Source: an uncultured Clostridia bacterium
GTDB taxonomy: Bacteria > Bacillota > Clostridia > TANB77 > CAG-508
DNA length: 33,793 nucleotides
Assembly: GCA_944388605.1 (NCBI GenBank)
Contig: CALXJJ010000015.1
Coordinates: 1 to 33,793, forward strand
Reading direction: 5' to 3'
The notes beneath the pieces were generated by a model, which was not told the origin of the DNA, ran no database searches, and saw nothing but the letters and a program-made list of their open reading frames with translations. Shown one piece after another: positions 164 through 27,140 of this stretch; position 1 is the stretch's first letter, and each line of letters begins with the position of its first letter. The position numbers and the translations under genes are program-made.

Positions 164-236
164 TATTAATATTTAGAAAAAAATTTGTAATAAATTATTA
201 AAATTTGATACTAATATAGTAGAGGAGGAAAATTTT

Positions 237-725
237 ATGCAGGATATGAAAGAAATATATAATAAGTATTGTAAAATTGTTTATAAATATGTATTCTGCT
301 TAACTGCAAATGAAGATATAACTGAGGAAATTGTTCAAGAAACTTTTTTGATAGCAGTTAAAAATATAAACAATTTTAGAGGTGAATGTAAAGTATCGAC
401 TTGGTTGTGCCAAATTAGTAAATATATATGGTATAAAAGATTAAAAAAGGAAAAATTAAAAAAAGATGTGTCATTAGATGAAATACAAGATGAATTATTC
501 ACAGAAGAGACAATAGAAGATAGTTTTTTAAGAAAAGAAGAGAAAATAAAATTATTTAAAAAAATACAAAATCTTGATGAAAATACTAGAAATGTAATGT
601 ATTTAAGAATATTTGGAGATTTTGAATATGATGAAATAGCTGAAATTATGAATAGAACTTCAAATTGGGCAAGAGTTATATTTTTTCGAGGAAAGCAAAA
701 ATTAAAGGAGGAATTTGATAAATGA
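237..725 (+). CDS. ECF-type RNA polymerase sigma factor
   Basis: A 162-residue sigma-70 family protein with the two-domain ECF layout. Region 2 (about residues 5-71) includes the -10-recognition segment NNFRGECKVSTWLCQISKY. An acidic linker follows, then region 4 (about 103-155) with the helix-turn-helix stretch FEYDEIAEIMNRTSNWARV. There is no region 1 or 3. GAGGAGG at 222-228 sits 8 bases before the ATG, fixing the start. The stop overlaps the next gene's start as ATGA (722-725), so sigma factor and membrane anti-sigma factor are translationally coupled. It should direct RNA polymerase to a stress regulon when released from its partner. The regulon cannot be read from this window. The family assignment is firm; the signal is inferred from the partner's outer domain. 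Confidence 0.93.
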   Translation: MQDMKEIYNKYCKIVYKYVFCLTANEDITEEIVQETFLIAVKNINNFRGECKVSTWLCQISKYIWYKRLKKEKLKKDVSLDEIQDELFTEETIEDSFLRKEEKIKLFKKIQNLDENTRNVMYLRIFGDFEYDEIAEIMNRTSNWARVIFFRGKQKLKEEFDK

Positions 726-1357
726 AAAATGAATGTGATATTGTTAAAGATTTATTATTTAGTTACAATGATGGTGTTTTGAGTAACACATCAAAACAAT
801 TTGTGGAAGAACATTTAAAAGTTTGTATTAATTGCAAAAAAAATTTAGAAGAAATAAAAAAAGATAGTGAACGTAAAAGTCAAGAAAAAGAGATTGATTT
901 TCTTAAAAGTGTTAAGAAGAAAATAAATAAGAAAAACATAATTATTGCAATTAGTTTAATAATTCTATTTGTTATAATTGGATTTAATGTTTTGGTATAT
1001 AATAATTATAATGAAATAGCATCAACAATGGAGATATATCTTGAAAATGATATAACAAATGAACAATTAGAAAGTATAAAAAATAAGTTAATTGAAGAGA
1101 GCGATAATATAGAGATTGAATATATTTCAAAAGAAAAAGCGCTAGAAAAAATTAGAAATCAATTAGGAGACAATTCAGATTTATTAAGTGGATATAACAA
1201 AGATAATCCTATTAATGCTTCTATTGAAATAAGAACAAATACTGAAGTAGAAAAATTAGTAGAAAAAGTGCAACATATGCCTGGAATTAACCATATAAAT
1301 ATACATACAAATGAAAATCCATATATATTATTTATTTCTAAAATTTTAAGTAATTAA
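722..1357 (+). CDS. ZF-HC2 anti-sigma factor with an FtsX-type extracellular domain
   Basis: A 211-residue single-pass membrane protein. Residues 1-45 form a zinc-binding anti-sigma domain with C5 and the signature H31-x3-C35-x2-C38, expected to hold the sigma factor encoded just upstream. A charged linker follows, then one transmembrane helix (about 72-93). Residues 102-195 would lie outside the membrane and resemble the extracellular domain of FtsX: residues 133-167 align without gaps to residues 91-125 of the FtsX in this window with 17 of 35 identical, including EYIS, QL, GY, DNP and AS. The rest of FtsX (four helices, permease domain) is absent. The start overlaps the sigma stop by 4 bases. 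The likely role is to keep the sigma factor inactive until the outer domain binds or loses a ligand. ZF-HC2 and FtsX-domain assignments are from sequence; the sensing model is inference. Confidence 0.85.
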   Translation: MKNECDIVKDLLFSYNDGVLSNTSKQFVEEHLKVCINCKKNLEEIKKDSERKSQEKEIDFLKSVKKKINKKNIIIAISLIILFVIIGFNVLVYNNYNEIASTMEIYLENDITNEQLESIKNKLIEESDNIEIEYISKEKALEKIRNQLGDNSDLLSGYNKDNPINASIEIRTNTEVEKLVEKVQHMPGINHINIHTNENPYILFISKILSN

Positions 1358-19425: not shown

Positions 19426-19465
19426 CTAGATGAAATTTGTAAAAGTGAAAGGAATTGATATAAAA

Positions 19466-20338
19466 ATGAAAATTACGAATAAATATGCTATAGAGAAAAT
19501 TGCAAATGATATTAGAATTGGGATTATAGAAGAAGTATATTATGGACAATCTGGTCACCCAGGAGGATCACTTTCTTGTGCTGATATTATGGCAGTATTG
19601 TATTTTAACCAAATGAATATAGATCCAAAAAGACCATCTGCACCAGAAAGAGATAGGTTTGTATTATCAAAAGGACATTGTTCACCAGCTCTATATAGTA
19701 CTTTAGCTTGTAAAGGATATTTTGATAAAAAAGAGTTACAAACATTTAGAAAACTTGGAAGTAGATTACAAGGACATCCAGATAAAAATAAATTACCAGG
19801 AGTAGATATGACTTCTGGTTCATTAGGACAAGGGCTATCTGTAGCAAATGGAATGGCATTAAGTTCGAAATTAAATCATGATGGATATAGGGTATATTGT
19901 TTGCTAGGTGATGGAGAATTAGAAGAAGGGCAAGTATGGGAAGCTGCAATGTCATCTAATAAATATAAACTTGATAATTTATGTGTTATTGTAGATTATA
20001 ATGGATTACAGATAGACGGAAATATAGAAGAAGTAAAAAGTTTGAAACATATATATGATAAATTTAAAAGTTTCGGATTTAATGTAATTTCAATAGATGG
20101 CAATAATGTAGAAGAATTAATAGCAAGTTTTGATTTAGCAAAACAAATAAAGCAAAGACCAACAGTTGTGATTGCAAAGACTACAAAAGGAAAAGGTGTA
20201 TCTTTTATGGAAGGAAAAGCACAGTGGCATGGAAAATCACCTAATGATGAAGAATATAATATTGCTATGAATGAATTGAGAGAAAAAGAACATAGTATAT
20301 TAGAAATGCAAAAAAAAGATTCAGAAGGAGGAATATAA
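19466..20338 (+). CDS. Transketolase, N-terminal (ThDP-binding) subunit
   Basis: About 290 residues, equal to the N-terminal half of a classical transketolase. Visible are SGHPGGSLS with the conserved histidine, SKGHCSPALY, TSGSLGQGLSVANGMA, and the thiamin diphosphate motif that starts GDGELEEGQVWEAA (about 148 onward) and ends in DYNG. The enzyme moves two-carbon units in the non-oxidative pentose phosphate pathway. An in-frame ATG at 19430 lies at the expected transcript start, so ATG 19466 with AAAGG upstream (gap 13 bases) is chosen. The C-terminal subunit follows after one base, as in the split transketolases of many Clostridia and Archaea. Confidence 0.95.
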   Translation: MKITNKYAIEKIANDIRIGIIEEVYYGQSGHPGGSLSCADIMAVLYFNQMNIDPKRPSAPERDRFVLSKGHCSPALYSTLACKGYFDKKELQTFRKLGSRLQGHPDKNKLPGVDMTSGSLGQGLSVANGMALSSKLNHDGYRVYCLLGDGELEEGQVWEAAMSSNKYKLDNLCVIVDYNGLQIDGNIEEVKSLKHIYDKFKSFGFNVISIDGNNVEELIASFDLAKQIKQRPTVVIAKTTKGKGVSFMEGKAQWHGKSPNDEEYNIAMNELREKEHSILEMQKKDSEGGI

Positions 20339-20339
20339 A

Positions 20340-21275
20340 ATGCAAGATATAAAAAAAGCAACTAGAGAAAGTTATGGAGAAGCTTTAGCAAAATTAGGAG
20401 AGGAAAATAAAAATATAGTAGTATTAGACGCAGATTTATCAAGTGCAACAAAAACATGCGAATTTGCAAAAAAATTTCCAGATAGATTTTTTAATATGGG
20501 TATAGCAGAACAAGATATGATGGCTACAGCAGCTGGGTTTGCAACATGTGACAAGATACCATATGCCAGTACTTTTGCAGTGTTTGCAATGGGAAGAGCA
20601 TATGATCAAATTAGAAATAGTATATGTTATCCTAATTTAAATGTAAAGATATGTGCTACACATGCTGGTTTAACTGTAGGAGAAGATGGCGCAACACACC
20701 AAATGTTAGAAGACATAGCTTTAGCAAGAGTACTTCCAAACATGAAAGTAATATGTGCTAGTGATGATATTGAATGTAAATGGGCAGTACAAGAAATTTC
20801 TAAAATACCAGGTCCTGTATATTTAAGATTGGCAAGAGCTAAAACAAATATAATATATGAAGAAGGACAAAGATTTGAGATAGGAAAAGGAATACAAATA
20901 GGAGAAGGAAAAGATGCAACTATTATTGCAACTGGAATATGTGTTGCAGAAGCAATAAAAGCAAAAGAGATATTAGAAAATAAAGGAATAAGTATAAGAG
21001 TTATAGATATGCATACTATTAAGCCAATAGATAAAAATTTAATTATAAAATGTGCTAAAGAAACTAAAAATCTCTTTACTGTTGAAGATCATAGTATTAT
21101 TGGAGGCTTAGGAAGTGCTGTATGTGAAGTTTTAGCAGATGAATATCCAATAAAAGTTACTAGAATAGGTGTAAAAGATACATTTGGACAATCTGGAACA
21201 GCAGAAGAATTATTAGATTATTATAAAATTAGTGCAAAATACATAGTTCAAGAGATAGAAAATGGAAAAATGTGA
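20340..21275 (+). CDS. Transketolase, C-terminal subunit
   Basis: A 311-residue protein with the pyrimidine-binding and C-terminal domains. The cofactor-activating glutamate E57 lies in FFNMGIAEQDMMATAAGFA. THAGLTVGEDGATHQMLED follows, and the transketolase C-domain (GKGIQIGEGKDATIIATG, then VEDHSIIGGLGSAV) closes the protein. With the upstream subunit it should form the active alpha2/beta2 enzyme. GGAGG sits in the tail of the upstream gene, and only one base separates the stop codon from the ATG, so translation is coupled. Catalytic residues appear intact in both halves. A strong terminator follows. Confidence 0.95.
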   Translation: MQDIKKATRESYGEALAKLGEENKNIVVLDADLSSATKTCEFAKKFPDRFFNMGIAEQDMMATAAGFATCDKIPYASTFAVFAMGRAYDQIRNSICYPNLNVKICATHAGLTVGEDGATHQMLEDIALARVLPNMKVICASDDIECKWAVQEISKIPGPVYLRLARAKTNIIYEEGQRFEIGKGIQIGEGKDATIIATGICVAEAIKAKEILENKGISIRVIDMHTIKPIDKNLIIKCAKETKNLFTVEDHSIIGGLGSAVCEVLADEYPIKVTRIGVKDTFGQSGTAEELLDYYKISAKYIVQEIENGKM

Positions 21276-21401: not shown

Positions 21402-21459
21402 ATGAAAGGATATAGAACATATGGCAAAATTATGTAACATAAAGGAGAAAAGAAATTGT

Positions 21460-22140
21460 ATGATAGAATTTAGAAATGTAAGTAAAACATATGATACAGG
21501 AACAAAGGCAGTACAAAATGCTAATTTTAGAATAGATAAAGGAGAATTTGCATTTTTAGTAGGAACTTCAGGTTCTGGAAAATCTACATTAATAAAATTA
21601 ATATTAAAAGAAGAGGAACCTACTTCAGGGAATATTATTATAAATGGTAAAGATACAACTTTTTTAAAACCAAGTAGAGTGCCATATTTAAGAAGAAGTA
21701 TGGGAGTGGTTTTTCAAGATTTTAGATTATTACCAGATAAAACAGTATATGATAATGTTGCATATGCAATGTACATAGTAAGATCAACTCCAAGACATAT
21801 TAGAAGACAAGTACCAATGGTATTATCTTTAGTGGGATTAAGTAATAAAGCAAAAGTATATCCAAATGAATTGTCAGGTGGAGAACAGCAAAGAGTTGCA
21901 TTAGCAAGAGCTCTTGTTAATAATCCATCAATGTTAATAGCAGATGAGCCAACAGGAAACTTAGACCCAGATACAGCATGGGATATAATGACACTTTTAA
22001 ATGATATTAATTTAAGAGGAACTACTGTAGTAGTTGCAACTCATGCAAAAGATATTGTAGATAAAATGAAAAAAAGAGTAATTCAAATAGATAAAGGTGT
22101 AATAATAAGAGATGATAAAAAAGGTGGGTATGAGAAGTGA
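21460..22140 (+). CDS. ftsE: Cell-division ATPase FtsE
   Basis: A 226-residue ABC ATPase. Walker A is GTSGSGKS (35-42), the Q-loop is in VVFQDFRLLPD, the signature LSGGEQQR at about 138-145, and Walker B ends IADE (D162, E163) followed by PTGNLD. FtsE hydrolyses ATP in the cytoplasm to drive FtsX, which activates peptidoglycan hydrolases outside. An ATG at 21421 would add 13 residues unlike the family. ATG 21460, with AAGGAG at 21442-21447, gives the usual MIEFRNVSKTY start. The stop overlaps the GTG of ftsX by 3 bases. The operon continues into the coiled-coil M23 peptidase gene, its expected partner. Confidence 0.95.
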   Translation: MIEFRNVSKTYDTGTKAVQNANFRIDKGEFAFLVGTSGSGKSTLIKLILKEEEPTSGNIIINGKDTTFLKPSRVPYLRRSMGVVFQDFRLLPDKTVYDNVAYAMYIVRSTPRHIRRQVPMVLSLVGLSNKAKVYPNELSGGEQQRVALARALVNNPSMLIADEPTGNLDPDTAWDIMTLLNDINLRGTTVVVATHAKDIVDKMKKRVIQIDKGVIIRDDKKGGYEK

Positions 22141-23039
22141 AATATAATATTTTTAGTTATTTAATAGGAGAAGGCTTTAAAAATGTATGGAAACAGAAAA
22201 AGTCAACAGGTGCCTCTCTTGTAATAATGTGTGCAACTATGATTATATTTGGAATTTTCTTTTTGGCAGGAGAAAATATAAATAACATGATGAAAGATTT
22301 AGAGAGTCAGCAAGGAATGAGAGTTTTTATAGAAAAAGAAGCGACAGAAGAGAATATAACAAAGTTAGGAGATACAATAAAAGCATTAGATGGAGTAAAC
22401 AAAGTAGAATTTATATCTGAAGAAGATGCATTAAAAGATGTAAAAGAGCAATTAGATGATAAGCAATATTTGATAGAAGGCTATGATACAGATAATCCAT
22501 TTAGAGCATCATATGTAGTTACATTAACAGATTTATCAAAAAGTGAACAGGTTAAATCTGAAATAGAAAAAATGGAATTTGTAGGAAGAGTATCGAGTAG
22601 GGATACAACAATATCAGCACTTATGTCAGTTACACATGGTATAAATATTATTTCTTGGACAATTTTAGTCTTATTAATAGTAATTTCAACTTTTATAATA
22701 TCAAATACTATCAAATTAACAGTTCATGCAAGACGAAAAGAAATATCAATTATGAAATATGTAGGTGCAACTAATAGTTTTATAAGATGGCCATTTATGG
22801 TAGAAGGAATAATAATTGGAATTGTTGCAGCTTTAATTTCAATTTTAATTATAGGAGTAAGTTATGATTTCTTAGTAGAAAAAATATTAGCATCTTCAAT
22901 AACAAATGTTATTAAAACAATAACTTTATTACCATTTGAAGCAATGTTTGGAAAAATTTTAATTGTATATTTAGTTTTAGGTGTGGGCATAGGAGCAATA
23001 GGTAGTGTAATATCAATGAGAAAATATTTAAAAGTATAA
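22137..23039 (+). CDS. ftsX: Cell-division permease-like protein FtsX
   Basis: A 300-residue membrane protein of the FtsX family. Helix 1 is at about 25-45, the large extracellular domain at about 58-155, and three further helices near 168-192, 218-245 and 272-295. The outer domain has the family block EFISEEDAL...GYDTDNPFRAS (91-125). HARRKEISIMKYVGAT after helix 2 is the cytoplasmic coupling segment that meets FtsE. The start is GTG at 22137, overlapping the ftsE stop. FtsX couples ATP hydrolysis to a coiled-coil hydrolase; the gene 15 bases downstream encodes such a protein. Its outer domain is also found in the anti-sigma factor at 722-1357. Confidence 0.95.
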   Translation: MKYNIFSYLIGEGFKNVWKQKKSTGASLVIMCATMIIFGIFFLAGENINNMMKDLESQQGMRVFIEKEATEENITKLGDTIKALDGVNKVEFISEEDALKDVKEQLDDKQYLIEGYDTDNPFRASYVVTLTDLSKSEQVKSEIEKMEFVGRVSSRDTTISALMSVTHGINIISWTILVLLIVISTFIISNTIKLTVHARRKEISIMKYVGATNSFIRWPFMVEGIIIGIVAALISILIIGVSYDFLVEKILASSITNVIKTITLLPFEAMFGKILIVYLVLGVGIGAIGSVISMRKYLKV

Positions 23040-23054
23040 AAAGGAGAGATACTC

Positions 23055-24272
23055 ATGAAAAGAAAAATTGTATCAATAATTTTAGTATTTATGTTAATAA
23101 TATTACAAACACAAATTATATTTGCTGAAAGTGAACAAGAATTAAAAGATAAAAAACAAGAATTACAAGATCAAAAAGAAGCTGCTGAAGCAAGACAGGG
23201 GGAAGTTGAAGAAGAATTAGATGCACAAATGACAGAAATACAAAATTTAGATAGTAAAATAGAAGAAAATGAAAATCAAATAGATGAATTGTCATCGAAA
23301 ATAGAAAATTTAGAAACATCTATAACAGAAAAGACAGTAGAAATAGATAAAAAGCAAAAAGAATATGAAGAAAAAGACGAATTATTAAGAAAGCGTTTAG
23401 TAGCTTTATATGAAGATGGAGATGTAAGTTTTTTAGATCTATTATTTGATTCAGAAAATATTTTAGATTTTATATCAAGTTATGATACAATACAACAAAT
23501 TACTGAATGTGATACTGAGCTAATGGAAAGTATATCTAAAGAAAAACAAGAAATAGAAGCTACTAAAAAAACTTTAGAAGAAGAAAAAGCTCAAGTAGAA
23601 TCTGCTAAAAAAGAAAAAGAAGTATTAAGTACTTCACTTAATGCAAAAAAACAAGAAAGACAGAAAAAGGTTGATGCATTATCTGAAGAACAAAAAAGTT
23701 TACAACAACAAATAGATGATTTTGTTGGAGAAATAAATGCTGTAGATAATGCTATAAAGGAAGCATTAGAAAAGGCACAAGAGCAAATTAATAATGCAAA
23801 TAGTTCTTCTGGAGGATCTGGCTCTGCAGGATTACAATTTGATGGAAGTTTTATATGGCCATGTAATACAAAGATTATAACTTCAACAGTTAAACAAAGA
23901 TGGGGTAGATGGCATAAAGGAATAGATATAGGTGCAAGATATGAAAATGTATATGCTTCAGCATCAGGATATGCGTATAATTTGAATAATCCAGGTGGAT
24001 ATGGAACATATATAATGGTTGTTCATGGTAGTGGATACATAACATTATATGGACATTTAAGTACAAGTCATATATCAGATGGAGAATATGTAAAACAAGG
24101 AGATGTGATAGCAACATCAGGAAATACTGGAGCAAGTACAGGAGCTCATTTACATTTTGAAATAAGAAAAAGCTCATCAATATCAAGTTATTTTAATGCT
24201 GCTTTCTTAGATCCACTAGATTATTTACCTGGAGGTTGGACAATGACCGCAGGTGCAGATAAAGCGTCATAA
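23055..24272 (+). CDS. Coiled-coil M23 peptidoglycan hydrolase (PcsB/CwlO/EnvC-like)
   Basis: A 405-residue secreted protein. The signal peptide spans about 1-24 (cleavage near FA-ES). A long coiled coil (about 26-250) is interrupted near 110-150 by RKRLVALYEDGDVSFLDLLF, the hinge typical of FtsX-activated hydrolases. A Ser/Gly linker precedes the M23 endopeptidase domain (about 265-395). Zinc and catalytic residues are H287 and D291 (HKGIDIG), H334 (LYGHLS) and H365-x-H367 (GAHLHFE), so it should be active. It most likely cuts peptide cross-links when released by FtsEX. Its gene lies 15 bases after ftsX with AAGGAG upstream, which strongly supports the partnership. A closely related paralogue follows after a 330-base gap. 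Confidence 0.93.
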   Translation: MKRKIVSIILVFMLIILQTQIIFAESEQELKDKKQELQDQKEAAEARQGEVEEELDAQMTEIQNLDSKIEENENQIDELSSKIENLETSITEKTVEIDKKQKEYEEKDELLRKRLVALYEDGDVSFLDLLFDSENILDFISSYDTIQQITECDTELMESISKEKQEIEATKKTLEEEKAQVESAKKEKEVLSTSLNAKKQERQKKVDALSEEQKSLQQQIDDFVGEINAVDNAIKEALEKAQEQINNANSSSGGSGSAGLQFDGSFIWPCNTKIITSTVKQRWGRWHKGIDIGARYENVYASASGYAYNLNNPGGYGTYIMVVHGSGYITLYGHLSTSHISDGEYVKQGDVIATSGNTGASTGAHLHFEIRKSSSISSYFNAAFLDPLDYLPGGWTMTAGADKAS

Positions 24273-24602: not shown

Positions 24603-25790
24603 ATGAAAAAAACTATATATTTTTTTATAGTGATTTTAATTTGTATAATATTTACAACAACTGTATTAGCAGAGGATACTAATACAGTGCAAAATAATAG
24701 TGTAATACAAGAAATTGGAACAAATGAATTACAAGAGCAAAAAACACAAGTAACAAAAGAAAAAGAGGAAGCAATAGGCAATTTACAATATGTACAAGAT
24801 GAACTTTCTGCATCAATAATACAAGTTCAAAATATAGGGGATACCATACAGAATTATCAAACCGAAATTATGCAAATGAATCAAAAAATCGAGGAATTAG
24901 ATAAAAGTATAAGTGATAATAAAATAAAATTAGAAGATGCACAGTTAAAATATAATAAACAAGATGAATTATTAAGGAGAAGATTAGTTGCATTATATGA
25001 ATATGGAGAAACAAGTTATTTAGATCTTTTGTTTTCTTCTACTTCATTAGCAGATTTTGTTTCAAATTATTATGCAATACAGCAAATTGTTGAGACAGAT
25101 TCAGAAATCTTAGAAGATATGAAAAAAATTCGAGATACTTTATCAAGGACAAAACAGGCTTTAGAAAAACAGGAAAATGATGCAAAAACAATAAAAGTTA
25201 ATAAAGAGAAAACAGCTATTGCTTTAGAAAATGCAAAACTCGTAAGAGAAAGTTATATAGCAAATCTTTCAATAGAGGAAAGAGATTTAAATACAAAAAT
25301 TGAAGAATATAAGCAAGAAGAACTAAGAATAGAAGCATTAATACAGTCAGCTATAAACAATAATCAATTTGTTATTCAATATACCGGTGGAAAGATGATA
25401 TGGCCTGTAGCAAAGGAAGGAACAAGAATAACGTCATATTTTGGGTTTAGAGAGCATCCTATACAAGGAATAACAAAAAATCATTCTGGAATAGATATAG
25501 GAAGTGCAGGTTTTGGAGCACCTGTCGTGGCAGCTCTTGATGGAATAGTAAGTTATGCAGGATATTTAGGAGATTATGGAAATTGTGTTATGATTAATCA
25601 CGGAAATGGGATTACAACATTATACGGACATGGTCAAGCAATAAAAACTGAACTAGGTAAAGAAGTAAAACAGGGAGAACTCATAATGGAAGTTGGATCA
25701 ACAGGTATGTCAACTGGACCGCATTTGCATTTTGAAGTTAGAGTAAATGGAACAAGAACAGATCCATTGCAATTTGTTAATGCACCATAA
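24603..25790 (+). CDS. Second coiled-coil M23 peptidoglycan hydrolase
   Basis: A 395-residue paralogue of the preceding M23 protein. It starts at ATG 24603 with AAGGAG at 24591-24596; an upstream TTG at 24549 would hide the signal peptide MKKTIYFFIVILICIIFTTT. The mature part has a coiled coil (about 30-255) with the same hinge, DELLRRRLVALYEYGETSYL. The M23 domain has H294 and D298 (HSGIDIG), H343 (LYGHG) and H374-x-H376 (GPHLHFE). All catalytic residues are present. It is separated from ftsEX by a structured gap and probably has its own promoter. Whether it also uses FtsX is unknown; the shared hinge suggests it could. Duplication of PcsB-like proteins next to one FtsEX may allow division and elongation roles to be split. 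Confidence 0.92.
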   Translation: MKKTIYFFIVILICIIFTTTVLAEDTNTVQNNSVIQEIGTNELQEQKTQVTKEKEEAIGNLQYVQDELSASIIQVQNIGDTIQNYQTEIMQMNQKIEELDKSISDNKIKLEDAQLKYNKQDELLRRRLVALYEYGETSYLDLLFSSTSLADFVSNYYAIQQIVETDSEILEDMKKIRDTLSRTKQALEKQENDAKTIKVNKEKTAIALENAKLVRESYIANLSIEERDLNTKIEEYKQEELRIEALIQSAINNNQFVIQYTGGKMIWPVAKEGTRITSYFGFREHPIQGITKNHSGIDIGSAGFGAPVVAALDGIVSYAGYLGDYGNCVMINHGNGITTLYGHGQAIKTELGKEVKQGELIMEVGSTGMSTGPHLHFEVRVNGTRTDPLQFVNAP

Positions 25791-25910: not shown

Positions 25911-27140
25911 ATGAAATCAGAAAAATTTGAGAAAATTTATAAAATTGTGATGCTAATTATAATAACTGTAGCCATTACTTTTTTTGTAACGACAATAGGC
26001 ATATATAATTATATAAAATCTGGAAAAAATCCAAGTTATTTAACAACTGTGTTAGGAGAAGAAGAAGCGAGTACAGAATATATTGCTTCTGTACTACAAA
26101 ATTTTAGAGATTTAATAGATAAAGAATATGTAGGAGAAATTAATGAGCAAGATTTGCTAGATGGAGCAATAAAAGGTTATATATCTGGGCTAAATGACCC
26201 ATATTCTGAATATTATACAAAAGAAGAGATGAGTTCAGTAATGGAAGAAACTGAAGGAGAATTTATAGGAATAGGTGTATATATAACTACAGATATAGAG
26301 GAAAATAAAGTTGTAGTTGTAAGTGCAATGAAAGATTACCCGGCAGATAAGGCAGGAATTAAGGCAGGAGATTATATAGTAAAAGTAGATGGTGTTGAAT
26401 ATACTGGAGAGCAAATAGATGAATTAACTAATAGTCTTAAAGGAGAAGAAAATACTACTTCTAAGATTGAAATATTAAGAGATGGAGAAACACAAGAAAT
26501 TGAAGTTAAAAGAGAAAAAGTTAAAGTAAGTCATATAGATGCGGAAATGTTAGATTCAGAAATCGGATATATAGATATATTGTCTTTTGATGGAGACACA
26601 GCAACTGAATTTGAAACGAAATATAATGAATTAGTAAATCAAGGAATGAAAAAATTAATTATAGATGTTAGAAATAATGGTGGTGGAGTTGTAGAAGAAG
26701 CCTTAAATATAGCAGATTTAATGGTGGGTAAAGATAAAATATTATTGATAACAAAAAATAAAAATGAAGAAGAAGAAATAAGAAAAGCTCAAAAAGATAA
26801 AATAATTAATATTCCAGTAGTAATTTTAGCAAATGAATATTCTGCTAGTGCATCTGAGATTTTGGTTGCAGCATTAAAAGAACAAGCAGGAATTAAAGTT
26901 ATAGGAAAAACTACTTATGGTAAAGGAGTTATACAAACACTTCATATGTTAGCTGATGGAAGTGGAGTGAAACTTACAACAGAAGAATATTACACACCTA
27001 ATAGAAATAAAATTAATAAAATAGGAATAACACCAGATATAGAAGTTAGTTTAGATGAGAAATATAAAGGAGTAACAAATATTCCAATAGAAGATGATTT
27101 GCAATTACAGATGGCAATTGAAGAAATAAAAAAAGAATAA
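25911..27140 (+). CDS. C-terminal processing protease, S41A family (CtpA-like)
   Basis: A 409-residue membrane-anchored serine protease. One N-terminal helix (about 12-33) leads to a CTP N-terminal domain (NDPYSEYYTKEEM), a PDZ domain (about 117-200, GIGVYITTDIEENKVVV), and the S41 core. The catalytic Ser-Lys pair is S313 in EYSASASEIL and K338 in GKTTYGKGV. Their spacing of 25 residues equals that in B. subtilis CtpB. The active site faces outside the membrane. CtpA-type proteases in other bacteria trim or degrade secreted M23 endopeptidases, so the location right after two of them is suggestive. GGAGG precedes the ATG. Confidence 0.94.
   Translation: MKSEKFEKIYKIVMLIIITVAITFFVTTIGIYNYIKSGKNPSYLTTVLGEEEASTEYIASVLQNFRDLIDKEYVGEINEQDLLDGAIKGYISGLNDPYSEYYTKEEMSSVMEETEGEFIGIGVYITTDIEENKVVVVSAMKDYPADKAGIKAGDYIVKVDGVEYTGEQIDELTNSLKGEENTTSKIEILRDGETQEIEVKREKVKVSHIDAEMLDSEIGYIDILSFDGDTATEFETKYNELVNQGMKKLIIDVRNNGGGVVEEALNIADLMVGKDKILLITKNKNEEEEIRKAQKDKIINIPVVILANEYSASASEILVAALKEQAGIKVIGKTTYGKGVIQTLHMLADGSGVKLTTEEYYTPNRNKINKIGITPDIEVSLDEKYKGVTNIPIEDDLQLQMAIEEIKKE

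Follow-up and report, generated by a model that had tools for sequence, protein, structure and literature searches.

An anti-sigma factor of Clostridia carrying an FtsX extracellular domain whose X-lobe is matched to the FtsX of its own genome

A sigma and anti-sigma gene pair with an FtsX-type outer domain

Near the start of the window, by which we mean the whole 33,793-nucleotide stretch of clostridial DNA analysed here, a predicted promoter precedes a gene for an ECF sigma factor and a gene for a membrane-bound anti-sigma factor (Table 1). The sigma open reading frame (ORF) carries Sigma70 regions 2 and 4 only, with PF04542, PF08281 and TIGR02937 all matching above their cut-offs. Both ORFs are present and overlap by 4 bp, in agreement with the original prediction that they are co-translated. 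The same window holds ftsE, ftsX and two genes for secreted hydrolases.

Table 1 Features of the sigma operon and of the ftsEX-hydrolase cluster
Feature	Position	Strand	Evidence
Predicted autoregulatory ECF promoter	185..214	+	TTGTAATAAAT (-35) ... ATACTAA (-10)
ECF sigma factor	237..725	+	Pfam Sigma70_r2 and r4; closest NCBIfam subfamily SigM, under its cut-off
Anti-sigma factor: zf-HC2 head, one transmembrane (TM) helix, FtsX extracellular domain	722..1357	+	Pfam, AlphaFold, Foldseek, adjoining sigma gene
Zinc anti-sigma motif C5-x25-H31-x3-C35-x2-C38	734..835	+	Four residues invariant, 30 orthologues
TM helix, residues about 70-96, lysine-rich cytoplasmic flank	929..1009	+	Sequence; helix H70-100 in AlphaFold model
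FtsX_ECD (PF18075), residues 103-192	1028..1297	+	E=1e-18; strand/helix order as in window FtsX model
X-lobe, residues 137-165, equivalent of FtsX hydrolase-binding lobe	1130..1216	+	Selective likeness to, and matching with, own-genome FtsX
N-P-Y (residues 199-201), start of C-terminal helix	1316..1324	+	Invariant in 30/30 orthologues; helix H200-210
FtsE	21421..22140	+	TIGR02673 E=1.6e-86, above cut-off
FtsX, source of comparison domain	22137..23039	+	NF038347 286 bits, above cut-off; FtsX_ECD E=1.9e-23
Secreted CC_PcsB coiled coil and M23 hydrolase	23055..24272	+	CC_PcsB E=1.3e-13, M23 E=1.7e-26
Second secreted CC_PcsB and M23 hydrolase	24603..25790	+	CC_PcsB E=7.1e-13, M23 E=9.8e-31

The cytoplasmic head of the 211-residue anti-sigma protein had been read as a ZF-HC2 domain followed by a single membrane helix. 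Both assignments hold: PF13490 matches residues 5-35 at 23.9 bits against a cut-off of 22.2, and the membrane helix is apparent in the sequence and in the structural model. The head places the protein among the class I zinc anti-sigma factors (ZAS/ASDI), with sigma binding and inhibition inferred. It shares with the class I proteins RsiW and ChrR the N-terminal zf-HC2 domain, the Hx3Cx2C motif and a gene placed directly after an ECF sigma gene, and with RsiW a single TM helix; in a PDB search, a profile of its family picks up RsiW and ChrR as weak matches. It differs from both in its outer domain, which is an FtsX extracellular domain.

A profile search and a predicted fold had been set beforehand as the tests that could refute this identification, and each returned FtsX. 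PF18075 matches the outer domain at 68.2 bits (cut-off 23.5), NCBIfam FtsX models match residues 74-198 (E=1e-15 and 6e-13), BLASTP aligns the protein with the window FtsX at E=6e-11, and hhalign relates the anti-sigma family to the FtsX family with a probability of 99.4% (E=1.3e-21). The AlphaFold model has a mean pLDDT of 86.5, and its ten best PDB matches in Foldseek are all FtsX, with TM-scores of 0.60-0.66 normalised on isolated domains. Judged by this model and Foldseek, the outer domain qualifies as a Porter fold with an X-lobe, a lobe that distinguishes FtsX from other type VII ABC permeases and grips the coiled coil of EnvC (PMC7668044). The same FtsX lobe binds PcsB in Streptococcus pneumoniae (PMC6355983). 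The ungapped alignment of residues 133-167 with FtsX residues 91-125, on which the original prediction rested, stands at 17 of 35 identities by direct count, except that one motif quoted as conserved was misread, FtsX having EFIS rather than EYIS.

The likeness to FtsX covers a TM helix followed, in identical order, by two beta-alpha-beta halves and the X-lobe. Unlike FtsX, the protein has neither TM2-4 nor a permease domain (PF02687 is not matched), ftsE does not adjoin its gene, and it possesses a cytoplasmic zinc head and a short helix at its end that begins with NPY. Its sensor makes it a carrier of an FtsX domain rather than an FtsX; its build, an anti-sigma factor whose sensor is an FtsX outer domain, is established. 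FtsX outer domains thus exist outside FtsX, and automatic annotation by FtsX_ECD can therefore mislead. The NPY residues directly follow the FtsX domain at the point where FtsX would enter TM2, and have no counterpart in FtsX. This invariant element is a candidate for a role in sigma release, which may proceed via proteolysis or via a change of conformation.

In the ftsEX cluster, the ORF of the second hydrolase runs from 24549, with a likely ATG start at 24603. The first hydrolase (23055-24272) is presumed to be both the partner of FtsX and the ligand of the anti-sigma factor. Two loci from a related family of the same order, L028 (genome G039) and L026 (G051), hold FtsX and a coiled-coil hydrolase in one frame of 781-782 amino acids. 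This is an apparent natural fusion, and the single frame at L028 supports this class of hydrolase as the partner of FtsX in the order. After the cluster lies a gene for a CtpB-like protease with PDZ and S41 domains (25911-27140), which is a candidate for the protease that makes the first cut in the anti-sigma factor, with no cleavage data. Elsewhere in the window (19430-21275), transketolase is split into two adjacent genes for its N- and C-terminal halves.

Distribution, promoter and predicted target

A scan of genome contigs yielded 36 related loci, mostly full-length orthologues, from metagenome-assembled Clostridia. Twenty-nine full-length orthologues, 40-65% identical to the window protein, were aligned with it, and both zf-HC2 and FtsX_ECD were matched in all 30 aligned proteins (Pfam, E<=0.01). 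A full-length copy occurs in about 31 of 243 sampled genomes of the window's family, spread over several genera. Every full-length copy in the order-level sample falls inside this one family of uncultured gut Clostridia, and in the phylum sample the full-length architecture was not found outside it; the remaining matches in these samples are either ordinary FtsX or anti-sigma heads joined to a different sensor. The genome survey that had been proposed for ZF-HC2 and FtsX-domain proteins beside ECF sigma genes thus returned about 30 orthologues in one family.

A sigma ORF lies directly 5' of the anti-sigma gene in nearly all loci, with few exceptions in which an automatic search found none. In relatives the pair is unlinked to ftsEX, and a neighbour comparison found no gene near the sigma operon that is shared beyond close relatives, which indicates that sigma and anti-sigma genes form a two-gene unit.

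Many paralogues in the family (L064, L066, L068 and others) have the same cytoplasmic head and membrane segment joined to different, mostly unassigned outer domains, and their genes come after similar sigma genes. Since the combination of such a head with some other outer domain is widespread in the family, the window protein looks like one of a group of paralogues with swapped sensors. The -35 box TTGTAAC is common to paralogous sigma operons, some of which have TTCCCTTA in place of ACTAA as the -10 box (G194:C69:38880-38909 and G398:C22:25842-25871 compared with the L064 and L066 upstream regions). Different -10 boxes may keep the regulons of these operons separate.

The promoter consensus of the family is TTGTAACAAAAT-N-GATACTAA, and TGTAAY-N18-ACTAA occurs about 55-58 nt 5' of the sigma start in 29 of the 30 upstream regions examined. 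Because the operon has this conserved two-box ECF promoter of its own, the pair is predicted to be autoregulated, with transcription inferred. An exact TGTAAY-N16-RTACTAA site occurs once in the window's 1.3-Mb genome, at the sigma operon, and no second strong match was found there. Two near matches in this genome were set aside, one (C32:485) lying near a contig end with no clear gene start following and the other (C8:1074) lacking a clear promoter context.

In the genus designated g2, the 14-base core TGTAACAAA-N15-ACTAA was searched genome-wide in five genomes. G438, G549 and G620 each have two copies of it, one at the sigma operon and the other preceding a gene that encodes CC_PcsB and M23 domains. 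G526 and G597 carry it once, at the sigma operon, and the extra CC_PcsB and M23 gene was not found in them. The predicted target in L209 is secreted (CC_PcsB E=1.9e-13, M23 E=1.2e-30) and is of the CwlO/PcsB/EnvC type, the class to which the partners of FtsX belong. About 41 nt separate the end of the -10 box from the start codon of the target gene, and this codon is served by a good ribosome site. The spacer in G438 is unlike those in G549 and G620, whereas both boxes are identical. Since these three genomes belong to one genus, the hydrolase promoter counts as one evolutionary event. In L209-L211 of this genus, a gene for a small membrane-anchored protein precedes the target hydrolase on the same strand.

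In genera other than g2, a strong promoter match was found at the sigma operon only, and the unlinked CC-M23 genes examined in such genera lack the motif. Pattern scans allowing 1-2 mismatches gave counts near those of a reversed-pattern control in most genomes; a broad regulon was rejected for this reason and is not claimed.

Matching of the X-lobe to FtsX of the same genome

Identities were compared in the 29 genomes that have both the anti-sigma factor and FtsX. Between the anti-sigma factor and the FtsX of one genome, the X-lobes share 53% identity, and X-lobe identity between genera is 48% for FtsX and 38% for the anti-sigma factors. With 53% against 38%, the anti-sigma X-lobe thus resembles the FtsX of the same genome more closely than it resembles orthologous anti-sigma X-lobes from other genera. 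The flanking parts of the anti-sigma domain are 25% and 23% identical to own FtsX.

In terms of genus means, X-lobe identity falls from 0.48 to 0.39 when partners are swapped among the nine genera, and 0.006% of all permutations equal the real pairing; the exact permutation test gives p=6e-5 for identity and p=2e-5 for BLOSUM scores. The same permutation of genera yields nothing for the first flank (p=0.48) and a marginal result for the second (p=0.05). A partial Mantel test on 21 non-redundant genomes, with the flanks of both proteins held constant, gives r=0.588 (p=0.0002), and its two control comparisons were negative. The p-values derive from several tests whose genomes are in part related to each other, and are best taken as a ranking of evidence.

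The anti-sigma columns with the biggest excess of own over other identity are 163, 144, 161, 148 and 165. Columns 144 and 148 correspond, in the alignment made in this analysis, to L115 and M119 of S. pneumoniae FtsX, whose extracellular domain folds but no longer binds PcsB when it carries L115A and M119A (PMC6355983). An unusual threonine at 144 is common to FtsX and the anti-sigma factor in two genomes. Two orthologues (L046 and L050) have lost part of the X-lobe.

Anti-sigma X-lobe distances also follow those of the coiled coil of the first ftsX-linked hydrolase when flanks are controlled (r=0.216, p=0.004). No tracking was seen with the M23 part of this hydrolase (r=0.025), and the corresponding coiled-coil correlation for the second ftsX-linked hydrolase was not significant (p=0.11).

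Genome-specific likeness could likewise be produced by gene conversion between the two genes or by repeated recent duplication from ftsX, which would make the X-lobe match an artefact. At identical residues, however, ftsX and the anti-sigma gene share codons at a rate of 0.657 against 0.635 expected from codon usage. Gene conversion is rejected because this rate is at expectation, which indicates that the match is kept by selection on the protein. In a tree, the anti-sigma domains cluster, with weak support (75/43), apart from the FtsX clade of the family (100/99). This grouping argues against repeated recent copying from ftsX, although the resolution of the tree is poor. Conversion or copying would also leave the lack of genome matching in the flanks unaccounted for, and we regard such an artefact as largely refuted and scarcely credible.

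Proposed hydrolase sensing and its alternatives

The build of the protein, its conservation, the X-lobe matched to own FtsX, the autoregulatory promoter and, in one genus, the predicted hydrolase target are results of computation. The original prediction had gone further in proposing that the anti-sigma factor listens to the ligand of FtsX. That proposal is supported by an X-lobe that is kept and tracks own FtsX and by the hydrolase promoter of genus g2, with binding inferred. We consider it highly probable that the outer domain shares a ligand with FtsX, and we assign a probability of about 0.68 to the reading in which the shared ligand is a hydrolase that the domain senses, polarity excluded.

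In the mechanism that we propose, the outer domain would bind the CC_PcsB M23 hydrolases that FtsX binds and would thereby control sigma release; both steps are inferred. With hydrolase available, the occupied anti-sigma factor would keep the ECF sigma factor at the membrane. Scarcity of hydrolase, or engagement of the entire pool by FtsEX, would leave the sensor empty; the sensor would then be destabilised or cleaved and the sigma factor set free. The released sigma factor is predicted to transcribe the operon that encodes it and also, in one genus or more, a reserve hydrolase of the CC_PcsB-M23 type. Wall hydrolases would in this way come under feedback control, read via a copy of their own docking site. 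Such negative feedback, with scarcity switching the sigma factor on, is preferred because the one extra target is a hydrolase. This preference is not strong, and if the ligand is shared, we put scarcity rather than excess as the activating state at only slightly better than an even chance.

For many membrane anti-sigma factors the switch is cleavage set off by a signal, and the same ligand could act here with the opposite sign, such that hydrolase in excess or uncoupled from FtsEX would trigger cleavage and the sigma factor would drive envelope protection. Every binding-type result fits this arrangement equally well. The sole target found beyond autoregulation is nevertheless a hydrolase, and switching it on by excess would create a runaway loop, such that we hold this polarity to be unlikely while keeping it in consideration. 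Two FtsX domains clamp EnvC in a 2:1 complex (PMC7668044), which allows for a mixed pair in which the anti-sigma domain pairs with FtsX or replaces one FtsX in the clamp and reports FtsEX assembly or activity. The X-lobes do match within genomes, as this would require, but it is the ligand-binding lobe that is matched and not the rest, the flanks diverging freely and being barely or not genome-matched, and FtsEX sensing of this kind appears improbable. Detergents were bound in the PcsB-binding lobe of S. pneumoniae FtsX (PMC6355983), and this, together with the diverged flanks and the two orthologues with shortened X-lobes, would suit a different ligand, such as a lipid, a cell-wall fragment or a detergent-like compound, with the likeness to FtsX reflecting descent only. 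Descent alone predicts even divergence, whereas the X-lobe resembles own FtsX more than it does other anti-sigma factors; we give this possibility little credence.

SigI-RsgI of Bacillus subtilis belongs to another sigma class, uses another sensor and, unlike the pair described here, has no FtsX-type domain. It is likewise a sigma and anti-sigma pair that controls a wall hydrolase gene, lytE, and WalRK of the same species is likewise a surface sensor system that adjusts wall hydrolase transcription, exerting homeostatic control over LytE and the FtsEX-linked CwlO (PMC7299342). WalK is a two-component kinase, and the described WalRK pathway reads hydrolysis products, not enzymes, whereas the anti-sigma factor would sense the enzyme itself and act through a sigma factor. 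The original prediction knew of no described anti-sigma factor of this build. A literature search, outside which most subscription journals and preprints lay, likewise found no description of an anti-sigma factor with FtsX or FtsEX, and the word FtsX is absent from the main text of a large survey of class I anti-sigma (ASDI) proteins (PMC7406223). As far as could be found, a familiar signalling chassis here carries a sensor not previously described in this role.

How cells match hydrolase supply to the FtsEX machines that license these enzymes is poorly understood. The full proposal, in which the free pool of division and wall hydrolases is measured directly by a co-evolving copy of the FtsX docking site and replenished via a dedicated ECF sigma factor, remains tentative, at somewhat less than an even chance. 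Because the gripping part of the outer domain stays matched to own FtsX, the cell probably uses this domain to sense its wall-cutting enzymes and to tune the genes that encode them. An anti-sigma factor seems to have acquired a copy of the FtsX docking site that stays matched to the original, which provides a directly testable handle; if the proposal is true, the sensor would be a decoy of the machine's own receptor.
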